Below, one piece after another: positions 30,351-60,370 of a DNA stretch of 64,000 nucleotides; position 1 is the first letter of the stretch, and each line of letters opens with the position of its first letter. A program made the translations under genes and the position numbers. Source of the stretch: Methylophaga sp. (GTDB lineage Bacteria; Pseudomonadota; Gammaproteobacteria; Nitrosococcales; Methylophagaceae). The DNA lies in assembly GCA_002696735.1 (NCBI GenBank), contig NZSL01000012.1:332091-396090 (forward strand). The letters run 5' to 3'. The notes beneath the pieces were generated by a model. That model searched no databases. It saw nothing but the letters and a program-made list of their open reading frames with translations, and was not told the origin of the DNA.

Positions 30351-30596
30351 GCCGTTTAAATCTCCCTGCCTTTTCCCTTAATAGAACCTTGATCATACAC
30401 GAATTTTTTTTGTGGAAGGTCACGAAAGATTCATATGATGAAAAAAAGTTTCTTTGAGGTGTTGACATCCGATTTCTCACGTGAGTAAATGAACCCATGG
30501 TTTCATCATGTGAAACAAAGTTTACCTAAAAGGTGGTAGTTCTCTATACCTATTAGGTAGTAGATGGAATGGCAAACATATTAATGAGGGGCAAAA
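30351..30596. promoter_or_regulatory. divergent control region of the XRE-cupin gene and the mgd-gmaS-mgs operon
   Basis: The region contains a perfect -35-like TTGACA at 30462-30467 with a weak GTAAAT 17 bases later at 30485-30490, and a dyad GTTTCA-TCATG-TGAAAC at 30500-30516 that could be the XRE operator. Two adjacent TAC-N10-GTA dyads follow: TACCTAAAAGGTGGTA (30523-30538) and TACCTATTAGGTAGTA (30547-30562), centred 24 bases apart. The mgdA ribosome binding site GAGGGG lies just before its ATG. I cannot tell which start point is used. Confidence 0.6.
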
Positions 30597-31838
30597 ATGC
30601 CATTAAGACTTTTGAAATATGCAGTCAGTCGAGAACATCCGGCTCCCCGTTTTTTCCGGGACTGTACTGAACCGAAAAAAACCTATGATGCGGTCATTAT
30701 TGGCGGCGGCGGGCATGGTCTGGCTGCAGCCTATTATCTGGCTAAAGATCACGGCATCACTAATGTTGCAGTGCTGGAAAAAGGTTATATCGGTGGCGGT
30801 AATACCGGACGCAATACCACTATTGTTCGTTCCAACTACCTGACTCCGGAAGGTGTCAATTTTTACAATGCCAGTGTCAAGTTGTTTGAAGATCTCTCAG
30901 AAGAGCTCGATCTCAACCTGTTTTATTCTAACCGTGGCCATTTCACTTTGGCGCATACCGATTCTGCCATGCGTACCATGCGCTGGCGTGCAGAAGTCAA
31001 CAAACATGTAGGCGTTGAAAGCTATGTGGTTGGCCCTGATGAGATTTCAAAAGCATGCCCACAACTGGATATTTCCTGCAGTGGTCAGGCACCTATTCTT
31101 GGCGCGTTATATCACGCACCAGGTTCAGTTGCCCGTCACGATGCTGTTGCCTGGGGCTATGCAAAGGAAGCTGATCGCATGGGCGTGGAAATATTCCAGA
31201 GCACTGAAGTAACCAGTATTGATGTGAAAAGCGGCAAGGTCGTTGGTGTGCAGACTAACAAGGGTTATATCAGTACCAACCGCGTGTTATCAGCAGTCGC
31301 TGGTTTTACGCCACGCATTTGCGAAATGGTCGATATTGAAACACCCATTGTGATCCATCCGCTGCAGGCATGTGTGACTGAGCCAATGAAACCCTGGTTA
31401 GACACTATCCTGGTTTCCGGCAGCTTGCATGTTTATGTCAGCCAGTCCTCTCGCGGTGAATTGGTTATGGGGTCATCACTGGATCCTTACGAAATTCATT
31501 CAACCCGTTCATCACTGGATTTTGTTGAAGGCCTGACGTCGCATATCACTGATATGTTTCCATTCCTCGGTAATGTGAAAGTCGTACGGCAATGGGCAGG
31601 GATGGCTGATTTGACGCCGGACTTTGCTCCGATCATGGGCAAAACTGAAGTCGAAGGATTTTACATTGATGCCGGTTGGGGTACCTGGGGCTTTAAAGCC
31701 ACTCCCATTAGCGGCAAGACAATGGCTGAAACCATCGCCCGAGATATGGCCCCGGATATGATCAAATCATTCCGTCTATCACGATTTGAAGATTATGAGC
31801 TGACCGGTGAAAAAGGCGCAGCCTCGGTCGGCCACTAA
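30597..31838 (+). CDS. mgdA: N-methylglutamate dehydrogenase subunit A (SoxB-like)
   Basis: This 413-residue FAD-dependent oxidoreductase is homologous to sarcosine oxidase beta. The dinucleotide motif AVIIGGGGHGLAAAYYLA is at about residues 33-50, GGGNTGRNTTIVRSNYL near 66-82 matches the family's flavin-attachment region, and the C-terminal GFYIDAGWGTWGFKATP block binds FAD. As part of the N-methylglutamate dehydrogenase complex it oxidises N-methylglutamate to glutamate plus a C1 unit (formaldehyde or methylene-H4F). It heads a run of eight genes for the NMG pathway. Confidence 0.92.
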   Translation: MPLRLLKYAVSREHPAPRFFRDCTEPKKTYDAVIIGGGGHGLAAAYYLAKDHGITNVAVLEKGYIGGGNTGRNTTIVRSNYLTPEGVNFYNASVKLFEDLSEELDLNLFYSNRGHFTLAHTDSAMRTMRWRAEVNKHVGVESYVVGPDEISKACPQLDISCSGQAPILGALYHAPGSVARHDAVAWGYAKEADRMGVEIFQSTEVTSIDVKSGKVVGVQTNKGYISTNRVLSAVAGFTPRICEMVDIETPIVIHPLQACVTEPMKPWLDTILVSGSLHVYVSQSSRGELVMGSSLDPYEIHSTRSSLDFVEGLTSHITDMFPFLGNVKVVRQWAGMADLTPDFAPIMGKTEVEGFYIDAGWGTWGFKATPISGKTMAETIARDMAPDMIKSFRLSRFEDYELTGEKGAASVGH

Positions 31839-31853
31839 TTTAGGGATAGCAAG

Positions 31854-32117
31854 ATGAAATTACTTCAATGCCCCGTTAACGGCATCCGCCCGGTGAGTGA
31901 ATTTACCTACGGTGGGGAATACAGAGAGATGCCCGACCCAGATACCTGCAGTGATAAAGAGTGGGCTGGTTATGTGCATTACCGGCATGGGGCGCCGGGT
32001 TTGAAAAAAGAGTGGTGGTACCACGGTCCGAGCGGCACCTGGTTTATCGCAGAAAGAAACACGCTGACAGATAAAGTCAGCCGGACCTATCTTTACGGTC
32101 AGGAGAATAAGGCATGA
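31854..32117 (+). CDS. mgdB: N-methylglutamate dehydrogenase subunit B (SoxD-like)
   Basis: This 87-residue small subunit is like sarcosine oxidase delta. It begins MKLLQCPVNGIRPVSEFTYGGE, where the Cys/His residues (also HYRHG and WYHG later) can bind zinc, and ends with WWYHGPSGTWFIAERNT. It overlaps mgdC as ATGA. The subunit has a structural role in the heterotetramer. Confidence 0.92.
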   Translation: MKLLQCPVNGIRPVSEFTYGGEYREMPDPDTCSDKEWAGYVHYRHGAPGLKKEWWYHGPSGTWFIAERNTLTDKVSRTYLYGQENKA

Positions 32118-35014
32118 CATTGCGTATCGCTGAACAAGAGAATGAATGGATCAACCGTGATATGCCTTTGACCTTCGAATATGAAGGCCAACAAATCGAA
32201 GCATATGAAGGCGATACCATTAGTAGTGCACTCTGGGCTGCGGACATTAAGGTTTTGGGTCGTAGTTTCAAATATCACCGTGCGCGTGGTTTATTGAGTT
32301 TTGCCAATCATGATGTCAATGCGTTGATGACGGATGGTGTTGACACCAATATCCGTGCTGATGTGATCCCGGTTACTCATAATATGCAGCTGACAGCAGT
32401 CAATACCGATGGTGGTGTAATAAAAGATAAAGGTCGTTATATCGATAAGATATCGGCGTTTCTGCCGGTGGGCTTTTATTACAAAACTTTCCATAAACCT
32501 AAATGGATGTTTCCCTTCTGGGAAGACAAGATCCGTAAGGCGGCCGGCTTGGGTGAAGTCAATTTCAACTATCCACGAATCACCCGTGCCAAACGCTATG
32601 CACATTGTGATGTGCTGGTTGTCGGGGCGGGTGCGTCAGGACTTTCTGCAGCACTCGAAGCAGCCGAAGCTGGCAGCCAGGTCATTCTGGTGGATGAAAA
32701 TCGCAAAATTGGCGGTAGTCTGACCTATGACATGGCCACTGATGTGAATACCGGTTCTTTGCTGAAACAGCTAACAGAAAATGTACTCAATCACGCCAAT
32801 ATTCAGGTGATTGCTGATGCCTATGCCGGTGGTTATTACACTGATCATCTGGTGCCAATTGTTGAAAAACGTGGCATTACTAAAGTTCGTGCGGGTACAG
32901 TAATTGTTGCCAGCGGTGCTTTTGAACAACCTCCAGTATTTCGTTATAACGATTTACCAGGAGTGATGCTGAGCTCAGCTGCACAACGTCTGGTGAATCG
33001 TTACTCGGTTAAACCCTTTACAAAAGGTGTATTGGTCACTGCGAATGATTATGGCTATCGGGCGGCACTGGATCTGGCTGCAGCCAAAGTCGAAATAGTT
33101 GCCGTCATTGATATGCGTCAAACTGGTGCCGAAGGTGATTTGACTGAAAAGGTTAAACAGGCTGGTATCGCCGTTCATCTGGGCAGCTGTATTTATGAAG
33201 TAGTGCCTTCATCCGACAAACTGGGTGTCAGTGCCGTTATTGTATGTCCTTATAATGAGGCTACTGCCGAGGCTGACCTGCATCAGCAAGTCGTATTGAA
33301 TTGTGATGGTGTTGCGATGAGCGCTGGCTGGGCCCCGGCTGCAGCTTTGCTTTATCAGGCTGGTACTCAGATGCGCTATGACCAGGCGGTTCAGCAGTTT
33401 GTGCCGAATCAGCTGCCAGAAGGGGTATTTGCTGCCGGTAAAGTCAATGGCATCTTTGAACTTGAGCAACGGTTGCTGGACGGAAAACGGGCCGGTGCTG
33501 AAGCTGCACGCTATCTTGGCAAGAGTACTGCTGATCCCGTTGCTGTTATGGCACATCGTGGTAACTCGCCCAGTCATCCTTACCCAATTGTGAATCATCC
33601 AAAAGGCAAAAACTTTGTCGATTTTGATGAAGATATTCAGGTAAAAGATTTTATCAATGCTGCCAAGGAAGGTTTTGACAACATTGAGTTAATGAAACGC
33701 TTTACCACTGTTGGTATGGGACCAAGCCAGGGTAAGCATTCCAATATGAATGCTATTCGTATTCTGGCTCGCATACGGGATTTACCAGTTGAAAAAATTG
33801 GCTCCACTACAGCAAGACCGTTTTTTCATCCAACTCCGATCGGTCATTTAGGCGGACGCGGTTTTCATCCACATCGTCATACAGCGATGCATGAATGGCA
33901 TGTGAAAGAAGGCGGGGTGATGATGGAAGCTGGTGTGTGGTTGCGACCTGCTTATTACCTGCCACTGGGTATTAATTTAACCAGTCAGCAGGCAGTGCAA
34001 CAGGAAGCGATGGCTGTTCGTAAATCTGCTGGCATGATTGATGGCAGTACGTTGGGCAAAATCGAAGTCTTTGGCAAAGATGCTGCTGCGTTTCTGGAAC
34101 GTTTCTATACCGGTAAATTTGCCAGTCAGAAAGTCGGCAATAGCCGTATCGCCATGTTACTTGATGAAGCCGGCGTAATTGTTGATGACGGCGTAGCAGT
34201 CCGTCTGGATCAAGACAAGTTTTACGTGTCGACCAATTCCTCCAATGCAGCCACGGTATATCGTGAAATGCAACGTAATCTGCAGCTTTGGGGCATGCAG
34301 GTCACTCTGGTGAATCTGACTGGTGTGATGTCTGCCATGACATTGGCTGGTCCTTCATCCCGTTCAATACTCAGTGAACTGACTGATCTGGACCTTTTGG
34401 AAGAAGCTTTTCCACAAGGGGCATATCGCGAGGCTTTAGTGGCCGGTGTCAAAGCCAGAGTGATGCGAGTGGCATTTGTTTCGGATCTGGCTTTTGAAAT
34501 TCATGTTCCATCGAGTGCCGGTCTGCATGTATGGCAGAAAATTATGGAAGCAGGCAAAACCTATGGACTACGGCCTTTTGGTACTGATGCCCAGCGTCTG
34601 CTGCGTTTGGAAATGGGACATCATCTGATTAGTCACGATACTGATGGTTTAACGAATCCGTTTGAAGCACATGCTGAATCACTGGTGGCAATGGATAAAG
34701 CCTTTTTCATTGGTCAACGCAGCCTGAAAATCCTGCAGAAGAAACCTGTTAAGAAAAAACTGGTTACCTTTGTATTGGATGCGGATTTTGGTGAACTGCC
34801 CAAGGAATGCAATCTGGTAATAGAAAAGGGTGAGATTGCCGGTCGGGTGACCAGTATTTCTTTCAGTGAATATGTAAATCGGGTCATTGGCTTTGCCTTT
34901 GTCCTGCCAGAACAAGCCAAGGCTGGTCATCGCTTTGCGATTCGCACGGATAGTGGACGGATCGAAATGGCTGAAGTAGTTGAGCACTCTTTTCTAAGTT
35001 TGAATCAGGGCTAA
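32114..35014 (+). CDS. mgdC: N-methylglutamate dehydrogenase subunit C (SoxA-like)
   Basis: This 966-residue large subunit is homologous to sarcosine oxidase alpha. An N-terminal ferredoxin-like region (FEYEGQQIEAYEGDTISSALWA) is followed by an NAD/FAD-binding domain with VLVVGAGASGLSAALEAAEAG near residue 172, and a C-terminal GcvT-like domain (from about residue 580) that binds tetrahydrofolate and captures the methyl carbon. Length is normal for the family. The H4F-binding module makes folate supply (folE2 downstream) relevant to this enzyme. Confidence 0.92.
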   Translation: MTLRIAEQENEWINRDMPLTFEYEGQQIEAYEGDTISSALWAADIKVLGRSFKYHRARGLLSFANHDVNALMTDGVDTNIRADVIPVTHNMQLTAVNTDGGVIKDKGRYIDKISAFLPVGFYYKTFHKPKWMFPFWEDKIRKAAGLGEVNFNYPRITRAKRYAHCDVLVVGAGASGLSAALEAAEAGSQVILVDENRKIGGSLTYDMATDVNTGSLLKQLTENVLNHANIQVIADAYAGGYYTDHLVPIVEKRGITKVRAGTVIVASGAFEQPPVFRYNDLPGVMLSSAAQRLVNRYSVKPFTKGVLVTANDYGYRAALDLAAAKVEIVAVIDMRQTGAEGDLTEKVKQAGIAVHLGSCIYEVVPSSDKLGVSAVIVCPYNEATAEADLHQQVVLNCDGVAMSAGWAPAAALLYQAGTQMRYDQAVQQFVPNQLPEGVFAAGKVNGIFELEQRLLDGKRAGAEAARYLGKSTADPVAVMAHRGNSPSHPYPIVNHPKGKNFVDFDEDIQVKDFINAAKEGFDNIELMKRFTTVGMGPSQGKHSNMNAIRILARIRDLPVEKIGSTTARPFFHPTPIGHLGGRGFHPHRHTAMHEWHVKEGGVMMEAGVWLRPAYYLPLGINLTSQQAVQQEAMAVRKSAGMIDGSTLGKIEVFGKDAAAFLERFYTGKFASQKVGNSRIAMLLDEAGVIVDDGVAVRLDQDKFYVSTNSSNAATVYREMQRNLQLWGMQVTLVNLTGVMSAMTLAGPSSRSILSELTDLDLLEEAFPQGAYREALVAGVKARVMRVAFVSDLAFEIHVPSSAGLHVWQKIMEAGKTYGLRPFGTDAQRLLRLEMGHHLISHDTDGLTNPFEAHAESLVAMDKAFFIGQRSLKILQKKPVKKKLVTFVLDADFGELPKECNLVIEKGEIAGRVTSISFSEYVNRVIGFAFVLPEQAKAGHRFAIRTDSGRIEMAEVVEHSFLSLNQG

Positions 35015-35025
35015 GGAGCCAGCAT

Positions 35026-35691
35026 ATGCAAAATGTTGTATTACAAAGTCCAGTTGCGTTTGCCCAGACGTCTCTGAAACCGGAAATGGGTTTTATTAAC
35101 GGCATGGCGATTGTTAATCGCTATTCCGATCCGGATGTGGAAAGTCGTCATGCTGCAACACTGGCCATTTGCGATGTCAGTTGCCTGACACGTTTCGCTA
35201 TCAAAGGCCCTGCAGCAACTGATTCTTTAAAAGCAAAAGGGATTGAATTACCCGGTTCAGCAAACAGCTGGAGTCGTCATGATGCAACGCTGGTCATGCG
35301 TCTTGGAAATAGTGAATTTCTGCTGGAAGACCCGATTGGCGTACAGCAGTGCAAAGAATTAACTGAACAGTTGCAAAGTGGTGACGGTGTTCATGTCGTG
35401 CTGCGTAATGATGCGTCTTTTATTTTAAGTGGCGAGTTGCTTGAAGAGTTACTGGCCCAGGTATGTGCAATTAATCTGAGCGGGCCAATGTTGGCAGACA
35501 ATCAACTGGCGATGACCTCAATTGCAGGTGTCTCTGTGGTTGTTCTCAGACAGGAAGTGGCAGGTCAATCTCTATTGCGTCTCTGGTGCGATGGCACTTT
35601 TGGCGTTTATTTGTGGGAGACCCTGTTGAATATTATTAAAGAGCTAGGCGGCGGACCGGTTGGTATCAACCAGTTTTTCAATAGTAATTAA
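35026..35691 (+). CDS. mgdD: N-methylglutamate dehydrogenase subunit D (SoxG-like)
   Basis: This 221-residue gamma-like subunit has a GcvT-like fold: ATLAICDVSCLTRFAIKGPAA at about residues 44-64 and SRHDATLVMRLGNSEFLLED near 86-105. It sits 11 bases after mgdC. It completes the four-gene complex. Confidence 0.88.
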   Translation: MQNVVLQSPVAFAQTSLKPEMGFINGMAIVNRYSDPDVESRHAATLAICDVSCLTRFAIKGPAATDSLKAKGIELPGSANSWSRHDATLVMRLGNSEFLLEDPIGVQQCKELTEQLQSGDGVHVVLRNDASFILSGELLEELLAQVCAINLSGPMLADNQLAMTSIAGVSVVVLRQEVAGQSLLRLWCDGTFGVYLWETLLNIIKELGGGPVGINQFFNSN

Positions 35692-35730
35692 GCCATCCGG
35701 CGCTGAATAAATTAATCCATAGGTCAGGCA

Positions 35731-35793
35731 ATGAAATTTGAGCCAGAAACAAACCTAAGTGAGCCTATCACCGATAACCAGGAGCAAAAGTGA
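35731..35793 (+). CDS. 20-codon small ORF coupled to gmaS
   Basis: ATG 35731 is preceded by AGGTCAGG and opens a frame [20 protein letters not shown] that stops at TGA 35791-35793, overlapping the ATG of gmaS by one base (TGATG). The product is acidic and lacks a membrane segment. The stop-start overlap is typical of translational coupling. It may be a leader peptide that tunes gmaS translation. I know of no named family. Confidence 0.4.
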
Positions 35794-37127
35794 TGAAAAC
35801 TTTAGAACAGGCAGAACAATTTATTAAAGACAACAACGTCAAATATGTTTTAGCACAGTTTGTCGATATTCATGGTGTGGCCAAGGTTAAATCGGTCCCT
35901 TCTGCACATCTTAAAGACATCATTAAAACCGGTGCCGGTTTTGCTGGTGGTGCTATCTGTGGCATGGGCATTCAGCCAAACGGCCCTGATTACATGGCGA
36001 TGGGCGATTTGTCGACATTGTCACTGATCCCATGGCAACCTGGTTATGCAAGAATTATCTGTAACGGACATGTCAACGGCGAACCCTATAACTTCGATTC
36101 TCGTGTTGTATTGAAAAACCAGATAAAGCGTCTTGAAGAAAAGGGCTGGACCATGTTTACCGGCCTTGAGCCTGAATTTTCGCTGCTCAAAAAAGATGAA
36201 TATGGTCATATTCATCCGTTTGAAGATAGCGATACATTACAAAAACCTTGCTACGACTATAAAGGGATTACGCGTCAGAGTGTCTTCCTGGAAAAATTAA
36301 CGGAATCGCTGATTGAAGTCGGTCTGGATGTTTATCAAATTGACCACGAAGACGCTAATGGCCAGTTCGAGATTAACTATACCTACGCAGACTGCCTGAA
36401 AAGTGCCGATGATTTCATTATGTTCAAGATGGCGGCCAGCGAGATCGCCAATGAATTAGGCATGATTTGTACTTATATGCCTAAACCGTTCAGTAACCGT
36501 CCCGGCAATGGCATGCATTTGCATATTTCGATCGGTGATGGCGAAAAATGCCTGTTCCATGATGACAGTGATCCGGCAGGGCATGGCCTGAGCAAGTTGG
36601 CTTATCACTTTATGGCCGGTCTGCTGGCACATGCTCCGGCATTGTGCGCTTTGGCAGCACCTACCGTTAACTCATACAAACGTCTGGTAGTGGGTCGTTC
36701 TTTATCTGGAGCTACCTGGGCACCTGCGTACATCACTTATGGCGATAACAATCGCTCAACTATGGTTCGCATTCCTTACGGACGTATTGAAATGCGACTC
36801 CCGGACGGTTCATGCAATCCTTACCTGACCACTGCGGCGATTATCGCTGCAGGCCTTGATGGTGTTGAAAGAGAGCTCGATCCCGGCGAGGGTCATAACA
36901 CCAACCTTTATGACCTCAGCCCGATGGAGTTGAGAGAAAAGGGTATCAATATCTTACCTCAGAACCTGCATGAAGCATTGCTGGCACTTGAAAAAGACAC
37001 TGTTGTAAAAGGCGCTTTAGGCGATGGTCTGGCAAATGAGTTTTTGGAACTGAAACACATGGAATGGGTGGAATACATGCGGCACGTCTCTGACTGGGAA
37101 ATTGATCGTTACGCTGAATTTTATTAA
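35793..37127 (+). CDS. gmaS: gamma-glutamylmethylamide synthetase
   Basis: This 444-residue glutamine-synthetase homologue (type III-like) condenses methylamine with glutamate using ATP to give gamma-glutamylmethylamide, the entry of methylamine into the NMG pathway. Metal- and ATP-binding motifs are visible: GLEPEFSLL near residue 125, [14 protein letters not shown] near 188, [12 protein letters not shown] near 237 and [18 protein letters not shown] near 327. I chose ATG 35793 with AGGAG eight bases upstream; a GTG one codon earlier is closer to the Shine-Dalgarno sequence. Confidence 0.92.
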
Positions 37128-44398: not shown

Positions 44399-44460
44399 TT
44401 TATAGAGCGATGGAGCTGGACATTTTTCTTAATAGTTTGCATTGCATATCGGCTGACAGG

Positions 44461-44476
44461 TACACCTAAAGGAGTA
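44461..44476. promoter_or_regulatory. TAC-N10-GTA dyad upstream of an APC permease
   Basis: TACACCTAAAGGAGTA lies 157 bases upstream of the permease ATG in an otherwise gene-free stretch (44399-44632). Extended to GTACACC-TAAA-GGAGTAC it is a near-perfect dyad. It shares the TAC, GG and GTA positions with seven other sites in the window. Confidence 0.6.
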
Positions 44477-44632
44477 CTTATTGAGGAGAATTATCAATCC
44501 CTCATTATTAAGCTAAGTTCAAAGCGGGTTTGAAATGAACCTGTATTCAACATGTTAAATGTTTTTTTTAAATTACTTATCAAAATAATAACTACAAGAA
44601 ATTACACGCTTAATAAGCTGGAGATGATTCTT

Positions 44633-46105
44633 ATGAGAGAAAATAACATGAGCACTACAAGTGCCTCCGTCACAGGAGAGCATTCTAATGACCTTGAACG
44701 CTCCATAGACTGGAAGCAGGGGCTGGCTATTGCGTCCGGCGTACCGTTACTGATTTTACCTTCATTGGGTTACTTTCCCCTCTGGGTCGCCTCTGCAGCA
44801 ATCCTTATCTGGGGTTTATCGGTACTGCAGGGCTTTATGCAAAATCTTGCCTATGCTGAATTGGCCACTACCTTTCCTAAAGCCTCGGGTTTACCTGGTT
44901 TTGCCCAAAATGTATTCAAAACCCAGAATTACGATGGAAATTATGACAAAGGAAAGCTTATCGGTGGTTTCAGTGCCTGGAGTTACTGGTTTGCATGGAA
45001 TCCAGTACTGGCGATTTTTGCCATACTTGTCGGTAGTTATCTGCATGGACTATTTCCGGTGCTGGGAACGATGTTTACCGAATATCAGCTCTCTTTGATA
45101 TCAGGAGGTGTGATTTTTAGTGTACTGCTTATCATCAACAGCTTTGGTCTTAAAGACAGTGCGATTTTAGGTTACATCCTGGCAGCCATTTCGTTGATAC
45201 CACTGGTGGTAATGACTGTTACCCCTTTTGCTACCGGGGCAGTGGAAATCAGTAATATCACAAACAGCTGGTTGCCTGCAGATTGGTCCTGGGATATGCA
45301 CCATATATTGATTTTATTCGGTTTGTTTGCGATTGCCCAGTGGAGTGCCTGTGCATGGGAAACCGCAGCGATTTATGGTCCTGAATATAAAAAACCAGGC
45401 ACGGACGTTCCCAAGGCATTGTTTGTCTGTGGGGCAATCTGTTTATTTTCCTTTGTACTGGTCCAGGCGGCTGTTATCGGCGTTTTAGGAGTTGATGGTG
45501 TTCTTGCTGAACCCTTGTCACCAATGATTCCAGTTGCTGAAGCTGCCTTTGGTAAGGCGGGTGCAATGATTGCCATTATTATGCTGATTGCTGCAATGAT
45601 TCTGATTATTCAAACAGCCTATCTTGGCTCTGCCAGAGCTATGCACTCAATGGCGAGTGAAGGAAATTTACCGAGAGTATTTGGCAAATTGAATTCACGA
45701 GGAACACCCGTTGTGGCAATGGTGGTTATCGGTCTTTTTAACCTGATATTAATTTCGATGGGTACACCGGCGGCCATCTTAGCTGCTTCAGCTATTGGTT
45801 ATACCTGTGCCAATGGCATCAGCCTGTTTGCTTATGTCAAAGCTAAAAATAATCCTAACTTTGCCAATCTGGACAGACCATTCAAAGCGCCAAAAGGTTG
45901 GAAGAACGTTGCTCTGCTATTCGGTTTGTTCAATATTCCGCTTTGCCTGATCGGTGTGGTGTATCTGAACAGTCTTGAAGTGGGTTGGTTTTCTACATGG
46001 GTTGGTTTTATTGTTCTGGGAATGTATCTGCCTATCTGGCTTTACACTCAATATGAAGCACGCTCGCAGCCAGAGATCGTTGTAAATGCTGCAGCGGGAG
46101 ATTAA
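44633..46105 (+). CDS. APC-family amino-acid/amine permease
   Basis: This 490-residue permease has about twelve transmembrane helices. It opens a membrane core with SIDWKQGLAIASGVPLLILPSLGY and has the family's helix-6 WSACAWETAAIYGPEYKKPGTDVPKALF loop. Homologous to the permease at 50100 and more distantly to that at 41225. Start is uncertain: ATG 44633 has GGAG nine bases upstream; ATG 44648 (MSTTSASV) is the alternative. A TAC-N10-GTA dyad upstream ties it to the methylated-amine gene set; the substrate could be a methylated amine or a glutamyl derivative. Confidence 0.8.
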   Translation: MRENNMSTTSASVTGEHSNDLERSIDWKQGLAIASGVPLLILPSLGYFPLWVASAAILIWGLSVLQGFMQNLAYAELATTFPKASGLPGFAQNVFKTQNYDGNYDKGKLIGGFSAWSYWFAWNPVLAIFAILVGSYLHGLFPVLGTMFTEYQLSLISGGVIFSVLLIINSFGLKDSAILGYILAAISLIPLVVMTVTPFATGAVEISNITNSWLPADWSWDMHHILILFGLFAIAQWSACAWETAAIYGPEYKKPGTDVPKALFVCGAICLFSFVLVQAAVIGVLGVDGVLAEPLSPMIPVAEAAFGKAGAMIAIIMLIAAMILIIQTAYLGSARAMHSMASEGNLPRVFGKLNSRGTPVVAMVVIGLFNLILISMGTPAAILAASAIGYTCANGISLFAYVKAKNNPNFANLDRPFKAPKGWKNVALLFGLFNIPLCLIGVVYLNSLEVGWFSTWVGFIVLGMYLPIWLYTQYEARSQPEIVVNAAAGD

Positions 46106-46190
46106 TAAAGTCGTCGGGTCATATAGTAAAAATGGGAACTTTGCAGTTCTAATGAAGTGTAATTTTGATCACAAATTTACAGTGATTTTC

Positions 46191-46206
46191 TAACTACTTG
46201 GGAGTA
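46191..46206. promoter_or_regulatory. TAC-N10-GTA dyad and promoter upstream of folE2
   Basis: TAACTACTTGGGAGTA has the shared GG and GTA positions and one change in the left TAC. Downstream lies a plausible sigma-70 promoter, TTGTTA at 46221-46226 and TAATAATG at 46243-46250. That places the dyad about 57 bases upstream of a predicted start, a usual activator position. Confidence 0.5.
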
Positions 46207-46323
46207 ATCCTTCTTTGGAATTGTTAGTGCCCTTGCTCGACGTAATAATGTAATCGTTGCTGAGTTACAGCTTAAATTCAGCTTCATTTAATTTCCTCGA
46301 TCCGTTCTCTCGTTGAGGCGTTG

Positions 46324-46389
46324 GGTGGATCAGGCCAGATAACAAAATTAGCAGTTTTTTGTTATCAAAGGCTGATCCACCTTTTTTTT
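46324..46389 (+). terminator. nested hairpin with T8 in the folE2 leader
   Basis: GGTGGATCAG (46324-46333) pairs with CTGATCCACC (46372-46381) and is followed by eight T. Inside it GATAACAAAA (46338-46347) pairs with TTTTGTTATC (46357-46366). It stands 53 bases before the folE2 ATG. It either ends the permease transcript or, if the promoter near 46221-46250 is used, acts as an attenuator in the leader. Confidence 0.7.
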
Positions 46390-46441
46390 GAGGAATACAG
46401 CAGGTGATTAACCAGCAATCTAAAAACAGAAGGATAGATCG

Positions 46442-47245
46442 ATGAACCTACCCCTGCATATTCAACTGGAAGATGTTCAGAATACGCCAGATAAACGCTG
46501 CCTAATCATCGATAGAGTTGGTATAAAATCTCTGCGTTATCCCATATTTTTTCAGAGTGATGCTGATGAAGCGCCTATTCGTGTGGTAGCTGACTTCAAT
46601 ATGTATGTGAAGTTGCCCCATGATGTGAAAGGCACGCATATGTCACGCTTCATCGAGCTGCTGGAAACGCCTGATCTGGTGATGTCATCGGATACTATCG
46701 GCGATTTCATGGAAACTATGCTGACTCAGCTTGAAGCAGATAGCGGTCACCTGGAAATGCAGTTTCCTTTTTTTATTCGTAAGCAGGCACCGGTTTCCGG
46801 CGTCAGCAGTATGATGGATTACGATATCACGCTGATTGCCAATATGCAGGAAACGCTCAGTCTTAAACTCAAAGTAGCGATTCCAGTAACCAGTCTATGT
46901 CCCTGCTCGAAAAAAATCTCCGAATATGGTGCTCACAATCAGCGTTCAATGATTACCGTGACTGCGGAATTGGGACAGATTATCAGTCTAAAATCTCTGA
47001 TTGAGAAGATTGAAAAACAGGCTTCCAGTGAGCTTTACGGCTTGCTCAAACGCCCAGATGAAAAGTTCGTCACCGAATATGCATACGATAATCCAAAATT
47101 TGTCGAAGATCTGGTGCGTGATGTGGCTGCCTCGTTAAATAGCTGTGAAGCCATTGTCGATTACATTATTGAATGTGAAAACTTCGAGTCGATACATAAC
47201 CATTCGGCTTATGCCATGTTGCAGAAAAGCAGGGGATCGCTATGA
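46442..47245 (+). CDS. folE2: GTP cyclohydrolase FolE2 (type IB)
   Basis: This 267-residue cyclohydrolase converts GTP to 7,8-dihydroneopterin triphosphate, the first step of folate synthesis. The FolE2 signature SLCPCSKKISEYGAHNQRS near residue 153, with the metal-binding cysteine, is present. It uses metals other than zinc in many bacteria. It overlaps the ribB-type gene by four bases. In this neighbourhood extra folate would serve H4F-dependent capture of methyl carbon (MgdC, the GcvT-like protein). Confidence 0.92.
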   Translation: MNLPLHIQLEDVQNTPDKRCLIIDRVGIKSLRYPIFFQSDADEAPIRVVADFNMYVKLPHDVKGTHMSRFIELLETPDLVMSSDTIGDFMETMLTQLEADSGHLEMQFPFFIRKQAPVSGVSSMMDYDITLIANMQETLSLKLKVAIPVTSLCPCSKKISEYGAHNQRSMITVTAELGQIISLKSLIEKIEKQASSELYGLLKRPDEKFVTEYAYDNPKFVEDLVRDVAASLNSCEAIVDYIIECENFESIHNHSAYAMLQKSRGSL

Positions 47246-49890: not shown

Positions 49891-49919
49891 GTCTCTATAA
49901 CTCACGTCAGCTATTCATC

Positions 49920-49949
49920 TACCACCTTGGAAGTACGCCTAAAGGTGTG
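49920..49949. promoter_or_regulatory. two overlapping TAC-N10-GTA dyads upstream of an APC permease
   Basis: TACCACCTTGGAAGTA (49920-49935) and TACGCCTAAAGGTGTG (49934-49949) overlap by two bases and are centred 14 bases apart. The reverse complement of the first matches the tmd-upstream site at 51954 in 15 of 16 positions. They lie about 160 bases before the permease start. A GATAATGTAA stretch at about 50038-50047 may be a -10 region. Confidence 0.6.
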
Positions 49950-50099
49950 TTGCCATACCATGTCTATAACAATCATATTGTCAGATACCCAGCTTTGAGC
50001 TGTTTGTGAATTGTATTTTGACCCTCTTCAATGCGTGATAATGTAAGCAATAACAACTAAATAATACGGCCAAAGAGCTGTAACTACAGGGGTAAACGG

Positions 50100-51812
50100 G
50101 TGAGTGAGCCTTCAGTAATTGCCAATGTGGCAGCCGTTGATTTGCTGGCCGAAAATCGGGCAGATCCATCAACTTTGCACCGTAGAATTAACTGGACCGG
50201 AGCCTTCTGGGTAGCAAGTGGCGTACCGGCACTTGTGCTGTTTTCCATGGGGGCGGTAGCAGCAACAGTCGGCCAGCCAGCCTGGCTGATTTGGATCATT
50301 TCTATCAGTTTTGGTTTTCTGCAAGCGTTTACCTATGCTGAAATCGCCGGATTATTTCCACATAAAACAGGCGGAGCATCGGTTTATGGTGCGGTAGCCT
50401 GGATTCGATATATCAAGATTGTTGCGCCGATATCAGTATGGTGCAACTGGATAGCCTGGGGGCCGGTACTCGCTATCGGATCGGGGTTGGCAGCAGGGTA
50501 TATTCTCTCCGCCCTGTTTGCCCCTGATGCCGTCATCAATAGTTGGCAAATCACGCTGGTCGATCTGTCCTACCTGAAAGACGGTTTGAGTTTGCGAATC
50601 AACGCGACATTTATCATCGGTAGTGCCCTGATGCTGGTGGTGTTTGCTATACAGAATGGCGGCATACTTCGATCGGCACGTGCCACCATGATCTTTGGTT
50701 TGACCGGTTTGTTGCCATTAATATTGGTCGGCCTGGTGCCACTGATTACCGGGGATTTACCATTATCCAATATTACCCCTCTGACACCTCTGGCCTATGA
50801 TTCAATCGGTCAGGTGATCGATGGTGAATGGAACCTTGAAGGCTGGAAACTGATGGCCGGAGGGCTGTTTATCGCAGCCTGGTCAACTTATGGATTTGAA
50901 ACGGCGGTTTGTTACACGCGGGAATTCAAAAATCCCAAAAGCGATACTTTCAAGGCCATTTTCTTTTCAGGTTTATTGTGTATTGCAGTGTTTTCACTGG
51001 TACCACTGGCATTTCAGGGTCACCTGGGACTTGGACAGCTTGTAGAGCGGGAAACGCTCAATAGTGCCGGTCAGGTTGTGGCGCCGGCAGTTTATGATGG
51101 AATGTTATCGGCAGAAATCTACAGTGGTATGGGGGTGGCGAATGTGCTGGCCGGTATTCTGGGTGGGGATAGTATGTTTGCCAATGTGTTTGTGGTGATG
51201 CTGGTGCTGGCGTTGCTGTTGTCAGTGATGACCACTATGGCCGGTTCATCACGCACTCTTTATCAGGGATCTATTGACGGTATGTTGCCCGGTTATCTAT
51301 CCAAGGTAAATGAACAGGGAGCGCCGACTGCAGCAATGTGGACCAACCTGATTGTCAATCTGGTGCTGCTTAGCATGTCTGATTATGTATTCCTGCTTGC
51401 TGCTTCCAATGTGGGATATATCATTTTTAATTTTCTCAATCTCAATGCTGGTTGGATTCATCGACTGGATCGACCAAATTGGGAACGACCATACCGTGCG
51501 CCAACAGTGCTGATTGCTATTGGTACGCTATTGTCATACGTAAATATGGTGCTGATGGGCATGGGGGCGAATGTCTGGGGAAAGGGAACATTGATGAGTG
51601 GCATTCTGCTGGCATTGCTGGTGATTCCGATTTTTATCTGGCGACATTACCTGGTAGATAAAGGCGTATTTCCCAAAGCCATGCGTGAAGACATGTCACT
51701 GGATGAAAATGGAGGCGATATTATTTGCCGTGCCGGTATTCTGCCTTATCTGGTCGTGCTGACGGGCATTCTTATTGTCTTTTACAGCAGTTTGCTGGTG
51801 GCTGATCTGTAG
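50100..51812 (+). CDS. APC-family permease
   Basis: This 570-residue permease has twelve or more helices and is related to that at 44633 (INWTGAFWVASGVPALVLFSMG versus IDWKQGLAIASGVPLLILPSLG). The substrate-helix loop reads AWSTYGFETAVCYTREFKNPKSDTFKA. The start is GTG 50100, preceded by a G-rich site at 50088-50092. It precedes the trimethylamine dehydrogenase gene and carries two upstream dyads, so uptake of tri- or dimethylamine is a reasonable guess. Confidence 0.8.
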   Translation: MSEPSVIANVAAVDLLAENRADPSTLHRRINWTGAFWVASGVPALVLFSMGAVAATVGQPAWLIWIISISFGFLQAFTYAEIAGLFPHKTGGASVYGAVAWIRYIKIVAPISVWCNWIAWGPVLAIGSGLAAGYILSALFAPDAVINSWQITLVDLSYLKDGLSLRINATFIIGSALMLVVFAIQNGGILRSARATMIFGLTGLLPLILVGLVPLITGDLPLSNITPLTPLAYDSIGQVIDGEWNLEGWKLMAGGLFIAAWSTYGFETAVCYTREFKNPKSDTFKAIFFSGLLCIAVFSLVPLAFQGHLGLGQLVERETLNSAGQVVAPAVYDGMLSAEIYSGMGVANVLAGILGGDSMFANVFVVMLVLALLLSVMTTMAGSSRTLYQGSIDGMLPGYLSKVNEQGAPTAAMWTNLIVNLVLLSMSDYVFLLAASNVGYIIFNFLNLNAGWIHRLDRPNWERPYRAPTVLIAIGTLLSYVNMVLMGMGANVWGKGTLMSGILLALLVIPIFIWRHYLVDKGVFPKAMREDMSLDENGGDIICRAGILPYLVVLTGILIVFYSSLLVADL

Positions 51813-51953
51813 TGCCAACTCCCAGCATTTTTTCTTTCAAAATTCATGTATTCGAATCAATTTCAACGCATGGCGGAATTTGTGCTCATTAAGTCATATC
51901 TGACAGCCCATATACTCTCTCCGACATAGTAACCACTTCGCTCAAGCCTCACG

Positions 51954-51969
51954 TACTTCCTAGGTGGTA
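51954..51969. promoter_or_regulatory. TAC-N10-GTA dyad upstream of tmd
   Basis: TACTTCCTAGGTGGTA lies 80 bases before the tmd ATG. It has CC-TAGG at its centre and both outer TAC/GTA triplets. The gap 51813-52048 has no gene. Confidence 0.65.
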
Positions 51970-51970
51970 A

Positions 51971-54241
<2,271 letters not shown>

Positions 54242-54257
54242 ATAGCAGGAACCGGTT

Positions 54258-56467: not shown

Positions 56468-57839
56468 TATCTGCCTGCCGGAGACTGCCGATGCACTGAT
56501 TAACTGTGCGATAAGCAGTGGCGATCTGCATAGTGCAGCAGCAGTGTATGAACTGGCTGAGGGTGAGCAAAAACAGCAGTTGAGCGACATACTTTGTAAG
56601 GAGCGTCGCAACACACTTCTGTTGGCTCGCTGGGAGCATACACCTGCAGCAGTGCTGCAAATGCTGGCGGAAATCGAGGATGAAACAATCCGGTTAAGAT
56701 TGGATAAAAATCCATCCAGTCGTGCCGGCACATTGAACACTATCTATAAAAAAGGTGGTCATGATCGGCAGTTGATCAGCCTGCTGACTCAGCATGCACA
56801 CAGCTCATCGACATTACTGAACAGTCTGGCTATGAGCGAGGATGACATTCCAATTCTCAAATCCATTGCTGCGCATCCAAATACCGATGCAAATACATTG
56901 AATCGCCTTGAACAACGTTATCCCGATATGTTTGATAACGAACTGGCTGTCCATGCTGAAACACCCCCTGAATTACTGGAAAAGCTCTATCAGCGAGGTA
57001 ACTGTTTTATCCGATCCGCTGTGGTGACTCATATCCGATGTCCACAGTTTTTGCTGGATTTGGCATTTAATGAAACAGACATAAACATTCTAAGACATCT
57101 GGCGGCAAATCCCCGGTTATCCCCGGAAAAATTAGCCATTCTGGCGCAACATGATGACGTCAGCGTGCTTCGTACTCTGGCAGGTAATCCATCTCTGAGC
57201 AAAGAGCTCGCAAACCAGATGATCCATAACAGTACCAATATTGTGCGTCGGGCTTTGGCGAGTCGAACTGACCTGACAGATGAAAATTTGCAGCAGCTGG
57301 CTAATGATGAAGATCACTGGGTTAGACAGAGAGTAGCCCGTCATCCCCAATTAGATGAAATGCTGCTTAATAAACTGGCCCAGGACCAGAATGATGAAGT
57401 TCGTCGTGCAGTAACGCGAAACCCACTGACATCTATCGATATTCTCAGACGGCTTTCTGTAGATAACAGCGTCTGGGTCAGAGCCGGTGTGGCGTATCAA
57501 AAGAACACCCCTGCAGATGTGCTCGGCATGCTGTCTGCTGAAGATGATGTCGACGTGCTGAGCGGAGTGGCCAGCAACGCTAATACCCCGCAAGCCATTT
57601 TGATAAGACTGTCGGGTTCTCAACAGACTGATATACGTCGTGGCGTAATTATTAATCCAAAGGCCGAGCGAGACACTCTGCTGCCTCTGCTGGAAGACCC
57701 GTATTACTTGCATCGGTTAATGCTGGTATCCAACCCTTCACTGAATGATCACGACCGCTGGAGCCTGCATGACGATCCTGATCTATCCGTCCGTTTTATG
57801 GTGTTCAAATGGTTTACACAAAAATATTTGCAGCCTTAG
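56445..57839 (+). CDS. leucine-rich-repeat-variant (LRV) protein
   Basis: This 464-residue protein begins MPMLFPPDICLPETADALIN and is made of about 24-residue units with the pattern LxxLAxxxxxxVRxxVAxNPxxPxxxL, for example ILRHLAANPRLSPEKLAILAQHDDVSV and VRQRVARHPQLDEMLLNKLAQDQNDEVR. This is the LRV superhelix, first seen in an iron-sulfur protein of Azotobacter. The N-terminal 100 residues lack the repeat and have no Fe-S cysteine cluster. I chose ATG 56445, with GAGG seven bases upstream; it overlaps the DgcB-like gene by 23 bases. The function is not known; a chaperone or maturation role for the neighbouring iron-sulfur proteins is an inference. Confidence 0.75.
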   Translation: MPMLFPPDICLPETADALINCAISSGDLHSAAAVYELAEGEQKQQLSDILCKERRNTLLLARWEHTPAAVLQMLAEIEDETIRLRLDKNPSSRAGTLNTIYKKGGHDRQLISLLTQHAHSSSTLLNSLAMSEDDIPILKSIAAHPNTDANTLNRLEQRYPDMFDNELAVHAETPPELLEKLYQRGNCFIRSAVVTHIRCPQFLLDLAFNETDINILRHLAANPRLSPEKLAILAQHDDVSVLRTLAGNPSLSKELANQMIHNSTNIVRRALASRTDLTDENLQQLANDEDHWVRQRVARHPQLDEMLLNKLAQDQNDEVRRAVTRNPLTSIDILRRLSVDNSVWVRAGVAYQKNTPADVLGMLSAEDDVDVLSGVASNANTPQAILIRLSGSQQTDIRRGVIINPKAERDTLLPLLEDPYYLHRLMLVSNPSLNDHDRWSLHDDPDLSVRFMVFKWFTQKYLQP

Positions 57840-57886
57840 CTGCATTAGAAATGCTGTTTTATACAGTCAACTAGGAGATAAATCTG

Positions 57887-58681
57887 ATGAAAATACTGGT
57901 TGCAGTTAAAGAAGTCGCTGCATTAGATGAAGACTTCGAAATTCGTGATGATCAACTTGATGTCGATGAGGATTTTCTGCTTTACGACCTCAACGAGTGG
58001 GATGATTTTTCACTTGAAGAAGCGATGGTTATCAAAGAATCATCTGACACCGAAGTTGAAGTGGTGGTGGTATCGGTCGGACCGGAAAGGGTCGATGACG
58101 TCCTGAGAAAATGCCTGGCTAAAGGTGCTGATCGCGCTATTCGAGTCTGGGATGATGCAATGGAAGGTTCTGATTCTGTCACGATTGGTCGCATCCTGTC
58201 CGCTGTCGTCGAAAAAGAAAAACCGGATATGGTATTTGCTGGTGTGCAGTCATCAGATGAAGCAGCTGGTTCAACCGGTATTTCACTGGCAGCCAGCCTT
58301 AATTGGCCTCATGCGGCAGTGGTTGCAGGACTTGAATATCAGCCTGGCAGTAATAAAGCCAAAATCACCCGGGAACTGGAAGGCGGACTTTCACAGGAAG
58401 TGGAAATTGACTGCCCATCAGTGCTCACCATCCAGCTTGGTATCAATACCCCGCGTTACGCCTCATTACGTGGCATCAAGCAGGCAGCTGCCAAACCTGT
58501 AGATGAAATCAGCCTGAGTGATTTGGGTTTGAGTGAGAGTGATGTTGGTGTTGATGCTGCTTTATCACGTGTACGGCGCATGTATATTCCTGAAAAAGGG
58601 ATGGCCTCAATGATTGAAGGTACACCTGCTGAACAGGCAGCAAAACTGGCTGAAATTATTCGTGAGTTCAAAGGGGAATAA
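57887..58681 (+). CDS. etfB: electron transfer flavoprotein subunit beta
   Basis: This 264-residue ETF beta subunit has MKILVAVKEVAALDED at its start, an adenine-nucleotide-binding fold (VVVVSVGPERVDDVLRKCLAKGADRAIRV near 65-95) and the ETF beta signature DCPSVLTIQLGINTPRYASLRGIKQA near residue 170. Located beside tmd, it is expected to accept electrons from trimethylamine dehydrogenase. It precedes etfA by two bases. AGGAGA is the ribosome binding site. Confidence 0.93.
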   Translation: MKILVAVKEVAALDEDFEIRDDQLDVDEDFLLYDLNEWDDFSLEEAMVIKESSDTEVEVVVVSVGPERVDDVLRKCLAKGADRAIRVWDDAMEGSDSVTIGRILSAVVEKEKPDMVFAGVQSSDEAAGSTGISLAASLNWPHAAVVAGLEYQPGSNKAKITRELEGGLSQEVEIDCPSVLTIQLGINTPRYASLRGIKQAAAKPVDEISLSDLGLSESDVGVDAALSRVRRMYIPEKGMASMIEGTPAEQAAKLAEIIREFKGE

Positions 58682-58683
58682 CC

Positions 58684-59643
58684 ATGAAAACATTCTTATT
58701 AATTGCTGAACACCGTCGTGGCGAACTGCGACCTATCTCACTGGAAGTTATTGCTGCGGCACAGGAACTAAGACAGGCTGATGACAAGGTTGTGGTAGCT
58801 GTGATTGGCGAACAGGCTGAAAATTATGTTGCCGATCTGTCAGTGGCCGGTGTAGATGAAATCATCACGGTAAAAACGGCCACTGTCGAGTTTGATCCGG
58901 ATATCTTTGAAGCTGCAATCACTTCGCTGATGGAAAAGCTGGATCCCGAAGTGGTTCTGCTCCCTCATAGTGTCGATTCTCTAGGCTACGCAGCCACTCT
59001 GGCACGCAAGGGTAATTATGGCTTTGCTACCGATGTATATGGACTGCAATATGATGGCGATGAACTGGTGGCGACACGATCCGGCTATGACCAGAAGGTC
59101 AATGTAGAGCTGGATTTTCCAGGCAAGCAATGTGTGTTGTTGACCATTCGTCCAAGCGTTTTCAAACCGACTGAGGAAAAAGCTTCTCCATCGGTATCGT
59201 CAGAAGATATGACCAATATCGAATCACGCAGTACTAACCTGGAATTTGTTGAGGCTGGTGGGGCAGATGATATTGATATCACCACGGTCGATTTCATTAT
59301 GTCGATAGGCCGGGGTATTGCCGAAGAAGCCAATGTTGAACAGTTCCGTGAGCTGGCTGAGATGGCTGATGCCACTTTGTGTTGCTCAAGACCTATTGCC
59401 GATTCCGGTTGGTTACCAAAATCCCGTCAGGTCGGTCAGTCAGGCAAGGTGGTTGGATCCTGCAAACTGTATGTAGCGATGGGCATTTCCGGTTCGATTC
59501 AGCATATGGCGGGCATGAAACATGTGCCGACTATTGTTGCTGTAAACAGTGATCCAGGCGCTTCGATTTTTACTATCGCCAAATACGGCATTGTCGGCGA
59601 TATTTTCGAAATCGAAGAAGAGTTGCGCAGCCATTTTGAATAG
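58684..59643 (+). CDS. etfA: electron transfer flavoprotein subunit alpha
   Basis: This 319-residue FAD-binding alpha subunit carries the C-terminal ETF signature LYVAMGISGSIQHMAGMKHVPTIVAVNSDPGASIFTIAKYGIVGD near residues 260-304, including the SGS-x-QHxxGM FAD motif. Residues 1-180 form the ETF fold. It completes the heterodimer with EtfB. No electron-transfer-flavoprotein:quinone oxidoreductase gene is seen in this window; the DgcB-like protein may do that job. Confidence 0.93.
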   Translation: MKTFLLIAEHRRGELRPISLEVIAAAQELRQADDKVVVAVIGEQAENYVADLSVAGVDEIITVKTATVEFDPDIFEAAITSLMEKLDPEVVLLPHSVDSLGYAATLARKGNYGFATDVYGLQYDGDELVATRSGYDQKVNVELDFPGKQCVLLTIRPSVFKPTEEKASPSVSSEDMTNIESRSTNLEFVEAGGADDIDITTVDFIMSIGRGIAEEANVEQFRELAEMADATLCCSRPIADSGWLPKSRQVGQSGKVVGSCKLYVAMGISGSIQHMAGMKHVPTIVAVNSDPGASIFTIAKYGIVGDIFEIEEELRSHFE

Positions 59644-59730
59644 GCTGGATTTATAGGGATTGTTGTTCTCTCAGAACATTCAACAATTAGTGATGGAATA
59701 ACAATTGACCCTCCTAAATTCGTGGGCTGG

Positions 59731-59769
59731 CGGGGTTACTGGCAGTGTCTGCCTTGGCAGACATCCCCG
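59731..59769 (+). other. structured leader of ribH
   Basis: TGTCTGCC-TT-GGCAGACA (59746-59763) is a perfect 18-base dyad, enclosed by CGGGG (59731-59735) and CCCCG (59765-59769). It lies 34 bases upstream of the ribH ATG, with an upstream hairpin near 59658-59690. It has no T-run and does not match the FMN riboswitch consensus. It could be an operator or RNA hairpin that affects ribH translation. Confidence 0.5.
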
Positions 59770-59802
59770 TTGGTTTCGCGATCTATATGAAGGAAAATCG
59801 GT

Positions 59803-60297
59803 ATGACAGATGATCTAAAAGTGTCAGCAACGAAAGCTGGTTTGAATGGCAAAGGTCTACGGATCGGTATCGTTCAGTCCCGCTTTAATCCGGCCATTGG
59901 CAGCGCCTTGGTCAGCGGCTGTATCGATGAACTTAATCGAGCGGCGGTAGCCAGCAACGATATTGTGCTGTTTACCGTACCAGGCGCACTAGAAATATCA
60001 TTGGTTTTATCAGAACTGTCGGAGAGCGGAAAATTTGATGGTCTGATAGCGTTAGGCTGTGTGATTCGCGGTGAAACCTACCATTTTGAGGTGGTTTGCA
60101 ATGAATCAGCTCGGGCCATTACGGAAATACAGCAGCATTACCGTGTCCCTATTGCCAATGCCATTCTGACGACCGAAAACGAAGAACAGGCGAGTACCCG
60201 AGCTCGTGTCAAAGGCAAAGAGTCAGCCCAGGTTGTGCTGGAAATGATTCAAACCCTGCAACGATTACAGCAACTCCCAAAATCTATATCGGCTTAA
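59803..60297 (+). CDS. ribH: 6,7-dimethyl-8-ribityllumazine synthase
   Basis: This 164-residue lumazine synthase makes the last intermediate before riboflavin from the DHBP (RibB product) and a pyrimidine. Motifs RFNPAIGSALVSGCIDEL near residue 27, TVPGALEISL near 61, and GCVIRGETYHFEVVCNES near 88 with the catalytic His are intact. It is a second flavin gene (with ribBX) inside the methylated-amine cluster, where flavoproteins Tmd, MgdA, MgdC, Etf and DmmB are encoded. AAGGA precedes the ATG. Confidence 0.93.
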   Translation: MTDDLKVSATKAGLNGKGLRIGIVQSRFNPAIGSALVSGCIDELNRAAVASNDIVLFTVPGALEISLVLSELSESGKFDGLIALGCVIRGETYHFEVVCNESARAITEIQQHYRVPIANAILTTENEEQASTRARVKGKESAQVVLEMIQTLQRLQQLPKSISA

Positions 60298-60354
60298 TAA
60301 ATATTCTTGATCTTGTAGAAGATCTCAACGAGTTCAAATTCGAGTATGGCTATT

Positions 60355-60370
60355 TACTCCATTGGGAGTA
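60355..60370. promoter_or_regulatory. TAC-N10-GTA dyad upstream of the dmm operon
   Basis: TACTCCATTGGGAGTA is a near-perfect dyad (TACTCC and GGAGTA arms with four bases between) located 82 bases before the dmmD ATG. It is the most symmetric copy of the shared motif. A weak -10-like CATAAA is at about 60424-60429. Confidence 0.65.

Follow-up and report, generated by a model that had tools for sequence, protein, structure and literature searches.

The 64,000-nucleotide stretch of Methylophaga sp. analysed here (the window, positions 332091-396090 of contig C7, NZSL01000012.1, in our genome G000 of 3.3 Mb and 19 contigs) carries, in front of its genes for methylated-amine use, a 16-bp dyad of the form TAC-N10-GTA. 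We propose, at a probability of roughly 0.8 judged from sequence comparison, that this dyad is the site of two NarL-type response regulators, designated NarL1 and NarL2, which would activate the methylated-amine genes in answer to a signal that is probably amine-derived. The element, its near-fixed spacing to a -10 hexamer, its target genes, its conservation, the two regulator pairs and the link between these pairs and the element are read from the sequence itself.

The dyad is real and well above chance. As the first-pass annotation of this DNA had suggested, its frequency exceeds expectation: the window has 16 occurrences of the bare TAC-N10-GTA pattern, whereas 60 simulations under a first-order Markov model average 7.1 and never exceed 15; ten of the 16 fall within the 9.5% of the window outside the open reading frames taken as genes (binomial p 3e-7). 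The eight sites listed in that annotation (30523 and 30547 upstream of mgd, then 44461, 46191, 49920, 49934, 51954 and 60355) were recovered exactly where they had been placed, and all eight indeed lie outside such reading frames. The internal GG at positions 11-12, which had been ascribed to all of them, is present in four (44461, 46191, 49934 and 60355), the other four having GG at 10-11; a G at position 11 is common to all eight. Moreover, 49934 is not a separate site; it is the second, weaker dyad of a tandem that starts at 49920, and a comparable second half is present at the other non-mgd sites too. The annotation had overlooked one site, 29176, which forms a tandem with 29190 and precedes a bacterial globin gene starting at 29269. 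The suggested 7-2-7 geometry is borne out by 25 chosen sites, which align without gaps as inverted 7-bp halves around a 2-bp spacer, with GTA invariant and TAC in at least 90%; the heptamer reads TACY in most rows, and its position 7 is C, A or T. The consensus heptamer of NarL is TACYYMT.

In the same ungapped alignment, TAC-N10-GTA is followed by a run near CNCCATCNTGRGAATT, which makes up a second, weaker dyad that has the TA in common with the first; 49920 and 49934 form a tandem of this kind. Six promoters of the window are built alike: the 7-2-7 dyad comes first and shares 2 bp with the weaker second one, and a -10 hexamer stands about 37 bp further downstream. Among 63 offsets at which the best -10-like hexamer after the dyad was scored (66 distinct sequences, nine families weighted equally, our own simple score), 37 bp came first, with z 4.6; the next-best offsets, with z 3.2 and 2.4, fall inside the element. 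The hexamers found at 37 bp include TATGGT, TAAGTT, GATAAT, TTTAAT and TAAAAT. At the level of single promoters, the offset is shifted by one at folE2 and globin, and the permease gene at 50100 has a poor -10. The centre of the second dyad lies about 31-32 bp upstream of the -10, close to the position of the single NarL site of Escherichia coli ogt1052, which suffices 32 bp upstream of the -10 according to the relevant passages of PMC9314961.

The same spacing bears on the idea that the dyads are RNA hairpins in 5' leaders, which we consider very improbable. Its half sites being complementary, the dyad could fold as RNA, and at mgd the dyads do lie downstream of the apparent core promoter; at the other promoters, however, they would be untranscribed because the -10-like hexamer is about 37 bp downstream of the dyad, and Rfam returned nothing in the window at gathering scores. 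An RNA element was dropped as a candidate on these two grounds.

The composite elements were scored with R1, a sequence-only profile whose training set included most dmmD and tmd sites and some permease and folE2 sites, and with a hold-out matrix derived from 15 tmd and dmmD sites of other genomes, which was scanned over 90 kb of our genome and excluded two tmd and two dmmD rows (those of G000 and G009) as well as all permease and folE2 rows. All six elements are on the forward strand, and all except that of globin were in the R1 training. The strongest, at 60353-60392 in front of dmmD (60435-61568), has its -10 TATGGT at 60408-60413 and scores 37 bits with R1 and 49.8 in the hold-out. The tmd element (51952-51991; -10 GAAAAT at 52007-52012) scores 31.8 bits and 38.2, respectively; tmd (52049-54241) most likely starts at ATG 52049 and not at GTG 51989, because there is a GGAG-like leader and eight orthologs align from the first residue. 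The folE2 gene (46442-47245) has its element at 46189-46228, with -10 TAATAAT at 46243-46249 (25.9 bits; hold-out 26.2). Two permease genes are equipped with elements: 44552-46105, with the element at 44459-44498 and -10 TAAGTT at 44514-44519 (21.2 bits; hold-out 14.9), and 50100-51812, in which the element at 49918-49957 contains the tandem dyads 49920 and 49934 and is followed by the poor -10-like TCATAT at 49973-49978 (23.5 bits; hold-out 12.5). The globin gene (29269-29673; Pfam PF01152) is preceded by an element at 29174-29213, composed of the dyad TACTATCTAAGTAGTA at 29176-29191 and a second half, with a possible -10 TAGACT at 29230-29235; it reaches 12.5 bits with R1 (E 0.5 genome-wide) and 10.5 in the hold-out, rank 8 in the 90 kb. 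This gene sits between carboxylase genes and mgd.

The first eight hold-out ranks are taken, in order, by dmmD, tmd, tdm, folE2, permease 44552, Amt, permease 50100 and globin. Within the window the same matrix placed the dyads 60355, 51954, 49920, 29176, 44461, 30547, 30523 and 46191 highest, followed by 7945, with 49934 low. Twenty simulated sequences gave maxima that average 8.6, the highest being 21.7, so that hold-out scores below about 20 count through position and recurrence and not alone. Single scores of 10-15 can thus arise at random, which is what a chance recurrence of a short pattern would have in its favour; position, conservation and gene content in 24 genomes argue against it, as does the scan of relatives, which found the pattern again at the same genes, and we consider the probability of mere chance negligible.

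In our own genome, R1 gave at least eight matches at E <=10: five window sites, window position 29175, C7:402229 (upstream of an Amt gene) and C2:363555. Seven of these belong to the amine-gene cluster and one stands in front of tdm. The latter, C2:363555, is on another contig and outside the training set; it lies between tdm and a second NarX-NarL pair, with tmm on the other side of the pair. The TMAO (trimethylamine N-oxide) demethylase assignment of tdm has an NCBIfam score of 1039 bits, under the cut-off of 1100, and tmm is above its NCBIfam cut-off.

Across 24 genomes of the genus, R1 gave 80 matches at E <=0.5, of which 69 are upstream of nine gene families: dmmD (16), folE2 (14, in 13 genomes), globin (9, at the orthologous place in nine genomes), tmd (8), permease 44552 (8, in eight genomes), tdm (6), permease 50100 (4), a EutQ-like cupin (3) and Amt (1). 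The tdm, globin, cupin and Amt sites lay outside the R1 training, as did the folE2 and permease 44552 sites of other genomes. The remaining 11 matches include four that are the same palindromes on the opposite strand, one upstream of an Amt-family gene (G009), one 586 bp from dmmD (G001), one unassigned near a contig end and folE2-like in sequence (G011) and three with E >0.3 and no assigned gene. The eleventh, at G004:C10:93399-93435 (L187), is an apparent relic of a tmd promoter and leader; no tmd gene was found in G004. No R1 match fell inside the genes mapped from reference proteins, these being the only genes mapped, and four of the 24 genomes (G002, G007, G010 and G019) had no R1 match.

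Conservation at individual genes follows the same pattern. Full-length tmd (at least 85% identical) occurs in 8 of the 24 genomes, and in all eight the dyad is 93-96 bp upstream of the start, with AGC for TAC in G003; it was not found at a 64%-identical tmd paralog in G014. The dmmD gene occurs in 16 of the 24 genomes, each with the dyad. Paralogs of tmd (G014:C9) and mgd (G014:C18) were left out of these counts. The first-pass annotation had named two outcomes that would speak against a shared regulon, namely equal frequency of the motif upstream of unrelated genes and loss of the sites in close relatives. Neither the genome scan nor the comparison of relatives bore this out, apart from the exceptions gathered below. 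The single regulon that it had suggested is well founded for promoters of the tandem type and no more than likely for mgd, whose pair of dyads is placed differently.

As had been stated before, the window contains no gene for a LuxR-type regulator: a search of its proteins for GerE domains found none. The whole genome has ten GerE-domain genes over the cut-off. One of these, NarL1 (C7:400550-401194), follows the kinase gene NarX1 (C7:398681-400531); the pair adjoins the dmm operon, 2.6-5.1 kb past the right end of the window (position 64000), and is accompanied by a divergent PAS protein. NarL1 consists of a receiver (PF00072) and a GerE domain (PF00196), and its best PDB match is E. coli NarL (1a04; residues 4-211, E 6.8e-63, the next match having E 1.4e-32). 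Where the first-pass annotation had named FlhR, MxaB or AgmR as models for the binder, the candidate is thus nearest to NarL itself. The NarX1 transmitter is composed of the Pfam HisKA_3 and HATPase modules, and is 39% identical to NarX over 246 residues. The second pair, NarX2 (393 aa) and NarL2, is found on another contig between tmm and tdm; no periplasmic domain was seen in NarX2. The PAS protein beside this pair is homologous to part of the one beside NarX1-NarL1 (30% over 243 residues). The two PAS proteins (L088:5267-6670 and L155:1253-2032) are perhaps accessory sensors.

The recognition helix of NarL contacts bases through K188, V189 and K192. Among the ten GerE proteins of our genome, these three residues are kept in NarL1 and NarL2 only. 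On the DNA side, G020, G021 and G022 have at dmmD the dyad TACCCATTAAGGAGTA, which recurs in E. coli K-12 with all 16 bases the same, 101 bp upstream of where nirB starts; in the pertinent part of PMC2718512, nirB is listed with a 7-2-7 site, which we infer to be this same dyad. From these resemblances NarL1 and NarL2 are the likely binders of the element.

The distribution of the regulators among 63 genomes of the order agrees with such a role. NarL1 (at least 71% identity) is found in 14 of them, and all 14 have a match to the element at E <=0.02, compared to 10 of the 49 others (Fisher p 5e-8, for genomes that are related and therefore not independent). When NarL1 and NarL2-like genes are considered together, 18 of the 19 genomes with either have a match, compared to 6 of the 44 with neither. 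In a second genus outside the training, G033 and G029 have elements together with NarX1-NarL1. The cluster of G033 extends from folE2 through NarX1-NarL1, and that of G029 is the same without dmmC, dmmB and dmmA; both have elements upstream of permease 50100, tmd and dmmD, with additional ones at the cupin in G033 and at folE2 in G029. All ten NarL2 loci have a site in the interval from NarX2 towards tdm, with scores of 13.0-30.9 (the threshold of 8.5 was picked after the scores were seen); tdm is within the stretch in eight of these.

These data also bear on the view that a protein of another family (AraC, LysR, XRE-cupin or an unlinked protein) binds the dyad and that the NarXL pairs are neighbours by coincidence. 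Such a binder has precedent, as the master activator of the same pathway in Ruegeria pomeroyi, TmaR, is AraC-type (as described in part of PMC13390433); the window itself holds a LysR gene (24826-25767) and an XRE-cupin gene (29715-30350), and in one genome, G016, a match occurs without NarL1 or NarL2. We nevertheless judge it unlikely, given the inverted 7-2-7 geometry, the identity with the nirB dyad, the co-occurrence with NarL1 in the 63 genomes, the finding that two contigs each have a NarXL pair of their own next to genes with the element, and a different palindrome at mgd that is the likelier site of the XRE-cupin protein. The XRE-cupin regulator was rejected as the binder of the element because of that separate palindrome.

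Several observations weigh against NarL1 and NarL2 as the regulators of all these sites. At tmm there are weaker variants, none with GTA, which score 8.8-18.8 in 8 of the 9 genomes whose stretch reaches tmm, and no tmm site at threshold in G021; in the hold-out tmm is tenth (5.9), behind the other strand of the globin dyad and below the mean simulated maximum. Three genomes (G005, G022 and G001) have kept the dmmD element without NarL1; since all three have NarL2, the two regulators may share sites. A dmmD element occurs without NarL1 or NarL2 in G011, a fragmented assembly in which the dmmD contig ends at about the expected place of NarL1, and G016, mentioned above, has its match at the globin promoter. 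Conversely, G055 has a NarL2-like gene and no match. In three g3 genomes (G027, G028 and G035), which belong to a neighbouring genus and have no NarL1, an element-like match (L220, ~9662-9697; also L221 and L222) is away from known genes, and G061 has a lone match. The permease 50100 element is matched in just 4 of 12 orthologs, position 7 of the heptamer is not always the T of the NarL consensus, the sensor region of NarX1, compared with NarX by profile, gave no match, and the R1 search of our own genome scored 150 of 689 first-look candidates. The match of G028 is upstream of an unrelated 166-aa protein, just after a hybrid-kinase gene.

The nature of the signal was examined in the sensor region of NarX1. 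Nitrate sensors of the NarX/NarQ kind have a four-helix periplasmic fold. The N-terminal model of NarX1, based on 10 sequences, has a predicted local distance difference test score (pLDDT) of 74, and its best seven PDB matches are all NarQ fragments, one of them at E <0.001. In nitrate sensors the motif G-x-x-R (the P-box) is conserved in the helix after the first membrane span, as described in the pertinent portion of PMC8199190. This motif is absent from residues 1-127 in all 10 NarX1 sequences, and a later G-x-x-R, at residues 128-135, is present in four of them; K/R-x-x-W is kept at 54-57 in all ten. The sensor alignment (A3) excludes G008, which has a masked stretch, and G006, which has a short sensor. 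The pairing of K/R-x-x-W with G-x-x-R rests on alignment by eye because the profile alignment gave no signal. Most of the periplasmic portion is missing from the NarX1 of G006, and in some genomes the signal may therefore be perceived elsewhere than in the periplasm. A third kinase, NarX3, carries the nitrate motif in the form AINDAGRERMRSYR in G007 and G014 and pairs with NarL3, whose recognition helix has K, I and Q at the three contact places (by eye). None of the six genomes with a NarL3-like regulator only (42-45% identical to NarL1; kinase read in G007 alone) has a match. By the NarX3 motif, the NarL3 residues and the lack of matches, the methylated-amine pair is a lineage apart from the nitrate-type pair.

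It could be argued that a genuine nitrate/nitrite NarXL system has co-opted the amine genes, so that methylated-amine use responds to nitrate. The best matches of the NarX1 model to NarQ and the four later G-x-x-R motifs are in keeping with this, and Methylophaga nitratireducenticrescens JAM1 has a nitrate-type NarXL by its nar operons (in the sections of PMC4689864 on this system). Yet no NarX1 has G-x-x-R at the usual place, all ten have K/R-x-x-W at 54-57, NarX2 shows no periplasmic domain, and the third pair, NarX3-NarL3, does carry the nitrate motif in G007 and G014, with no match in any of the six genomes that have a NarL3-like regulator only; a nitrate response is in our opinion improbable.

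Under the regulation that we favour, by NarL1 and NarL2, we infer binding, phosphorylation, activation and signal as follows. NarX1, the NarX-like kinase beside the dmm operon, would pass phosphate to NarL1, and its paralog NarX2, the kinase without a periplasmic domain beside tmm and tdm, would phosphorylate NarL2. The 7-2-7 dyad would be occupied by one regulator dimer and the weaker dyad next to it by another, and the bound regulators would recruit RNA polymerase to weak promoters. The targets would be genes for the breakdown of trimethylamine, TMAO and dimethylamine, their transporters and folE2, and the signal would probably be a methylated amine or a breakdown product and not nitrate. 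We give even odds to a further proposition on the origin of this system: that a nitrate-sensing NarX/NarL lineage was rewired in this family to methylated-amine sensing, with the conserved K/R-x-x-W, which could bind a cationic amine, replacing the arginine motif, while the DNA code of NarL stayed frozen to the point of identity with the nirB site, and that two paralogous kinase-regulator-PAS modules, for the dehydrogenase (tmd/dmm) and oxidation (tmm/tdm) branches, share this code.

The mgd promoter is organized differently. An apparent sigma70 core promoter, TTGACA-N17-GTAAAT, lies at 30462-30490 on the forward strand, and TTGACA-N17/18-GTAAAT is found in 17 of 17 mgd upstream regions. Downstream of it are the first dyad, TACCTAAAAGGTGGTA (30523-30538), and, 24 bp from the first, the second, TACCTATTAGGTAGTA (30547-30562); exact TAC-N10-GTA is kept in 13 and 15 of the 17 mgd orthologs, respectively. 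Membership of these dyads in the tandem promoter class was rejected, as they are mostly 24-25 bp apart and downstream of the core promoter. The palindrome GTGAAACAAAGTTTAC at 30510-30525, which overlaps the first three bases of the first dyad, is a possible operator of the adjacent XRE-cupin regulator (Pfam HTH_3 and Cupin_2; gene on the reverse strand, divergent from mgd); the form GTGAAACNNNGTTTAC is exact in 8 of the 17 upstream regions, and a relaxed form is present in all 17. Neither the palindrome nor the two dyads are assigned a strand. Because the mgd dyads come after the apparent core promoter and before the start codon, a regulator bound to them may repress or fine-tune; a NarL-type protein could repress there by analogy with NarL, which represses frdA from near the start (PMC4549865). 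The XRE-cupin protein, acting on the conserved palindrome, is a possible second and different regulator of the cluster.

The folE2 leader (window 46249-46441) has features of its own. It folds far better than shuffled sequences (z -5), and contains a strong terminator-like hairpin and a T run ahead of the start codon. On inspection by eye, 11 of 12 other folE2 loci (all but that of G005) have a similar hairpin-plus-T leader. No Rfam family was found in it at gathering score, and an automatic covariation alignment gave five pairs only.

Like the E. coli NarX-NarL system, the one described here uses inverted heptamers starting with TAC around a 2-bp spacer (portions of PMC4549865, PMC9314961 and PMC2718512), and the engineered NarL site TACCCCTAAAGGGGTA presented in part of PMC4549865 differs from the 44461 dyad in 2 of 16 bases. 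Unlike it, the targets here are methylated-amine genes, the tandem dyads overlap by 2 bp and the sensor has no nitrate motif at the usual place. The NarXL of M. nitratireducenticrescens JAM1 is of the same genus and protein family, with TAC heptamers predicted upstream of nar genes (from the corresponding sections of PMC4689864); it adjoins nitrate reductase operons, unlike the present pairs, and perhaps represents the NarX3-NarL3 lineage. In R. pomeroyi, where TmaR and TmoR are known, TmaR jointly controls tdm, dmm, mgd and gmaS-mgs and is an AraC-type activator, as opposed to the two-component NarL-type system here (in the parts of PMC13390433 that deal with them). No AraC helix-turn-helix gene is found beside mgd, the divergent gene there being XRE-cupin; no search for AraC genes was made in the rest of the genome. 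Searches of the open-licence PMC literature showed no regulator of methylated amines of the NarL type.

Trimethylamine, TMAO and dimethylamine are important carbon and nitrogen sources in the sea. Among the open-licence PMC papers searched, the sole master regulator of the pathway to be described is the AraC-type TmaR of a roseobacter (PMC13390433). In Methylophaga, a regulator of quite another type seems to govern a large part of this pathway, through a compact regulon with named genes and sites. If true, this would be a clean case of a sensor that switched its ligand while the DNA code of its partner remained unchanged.

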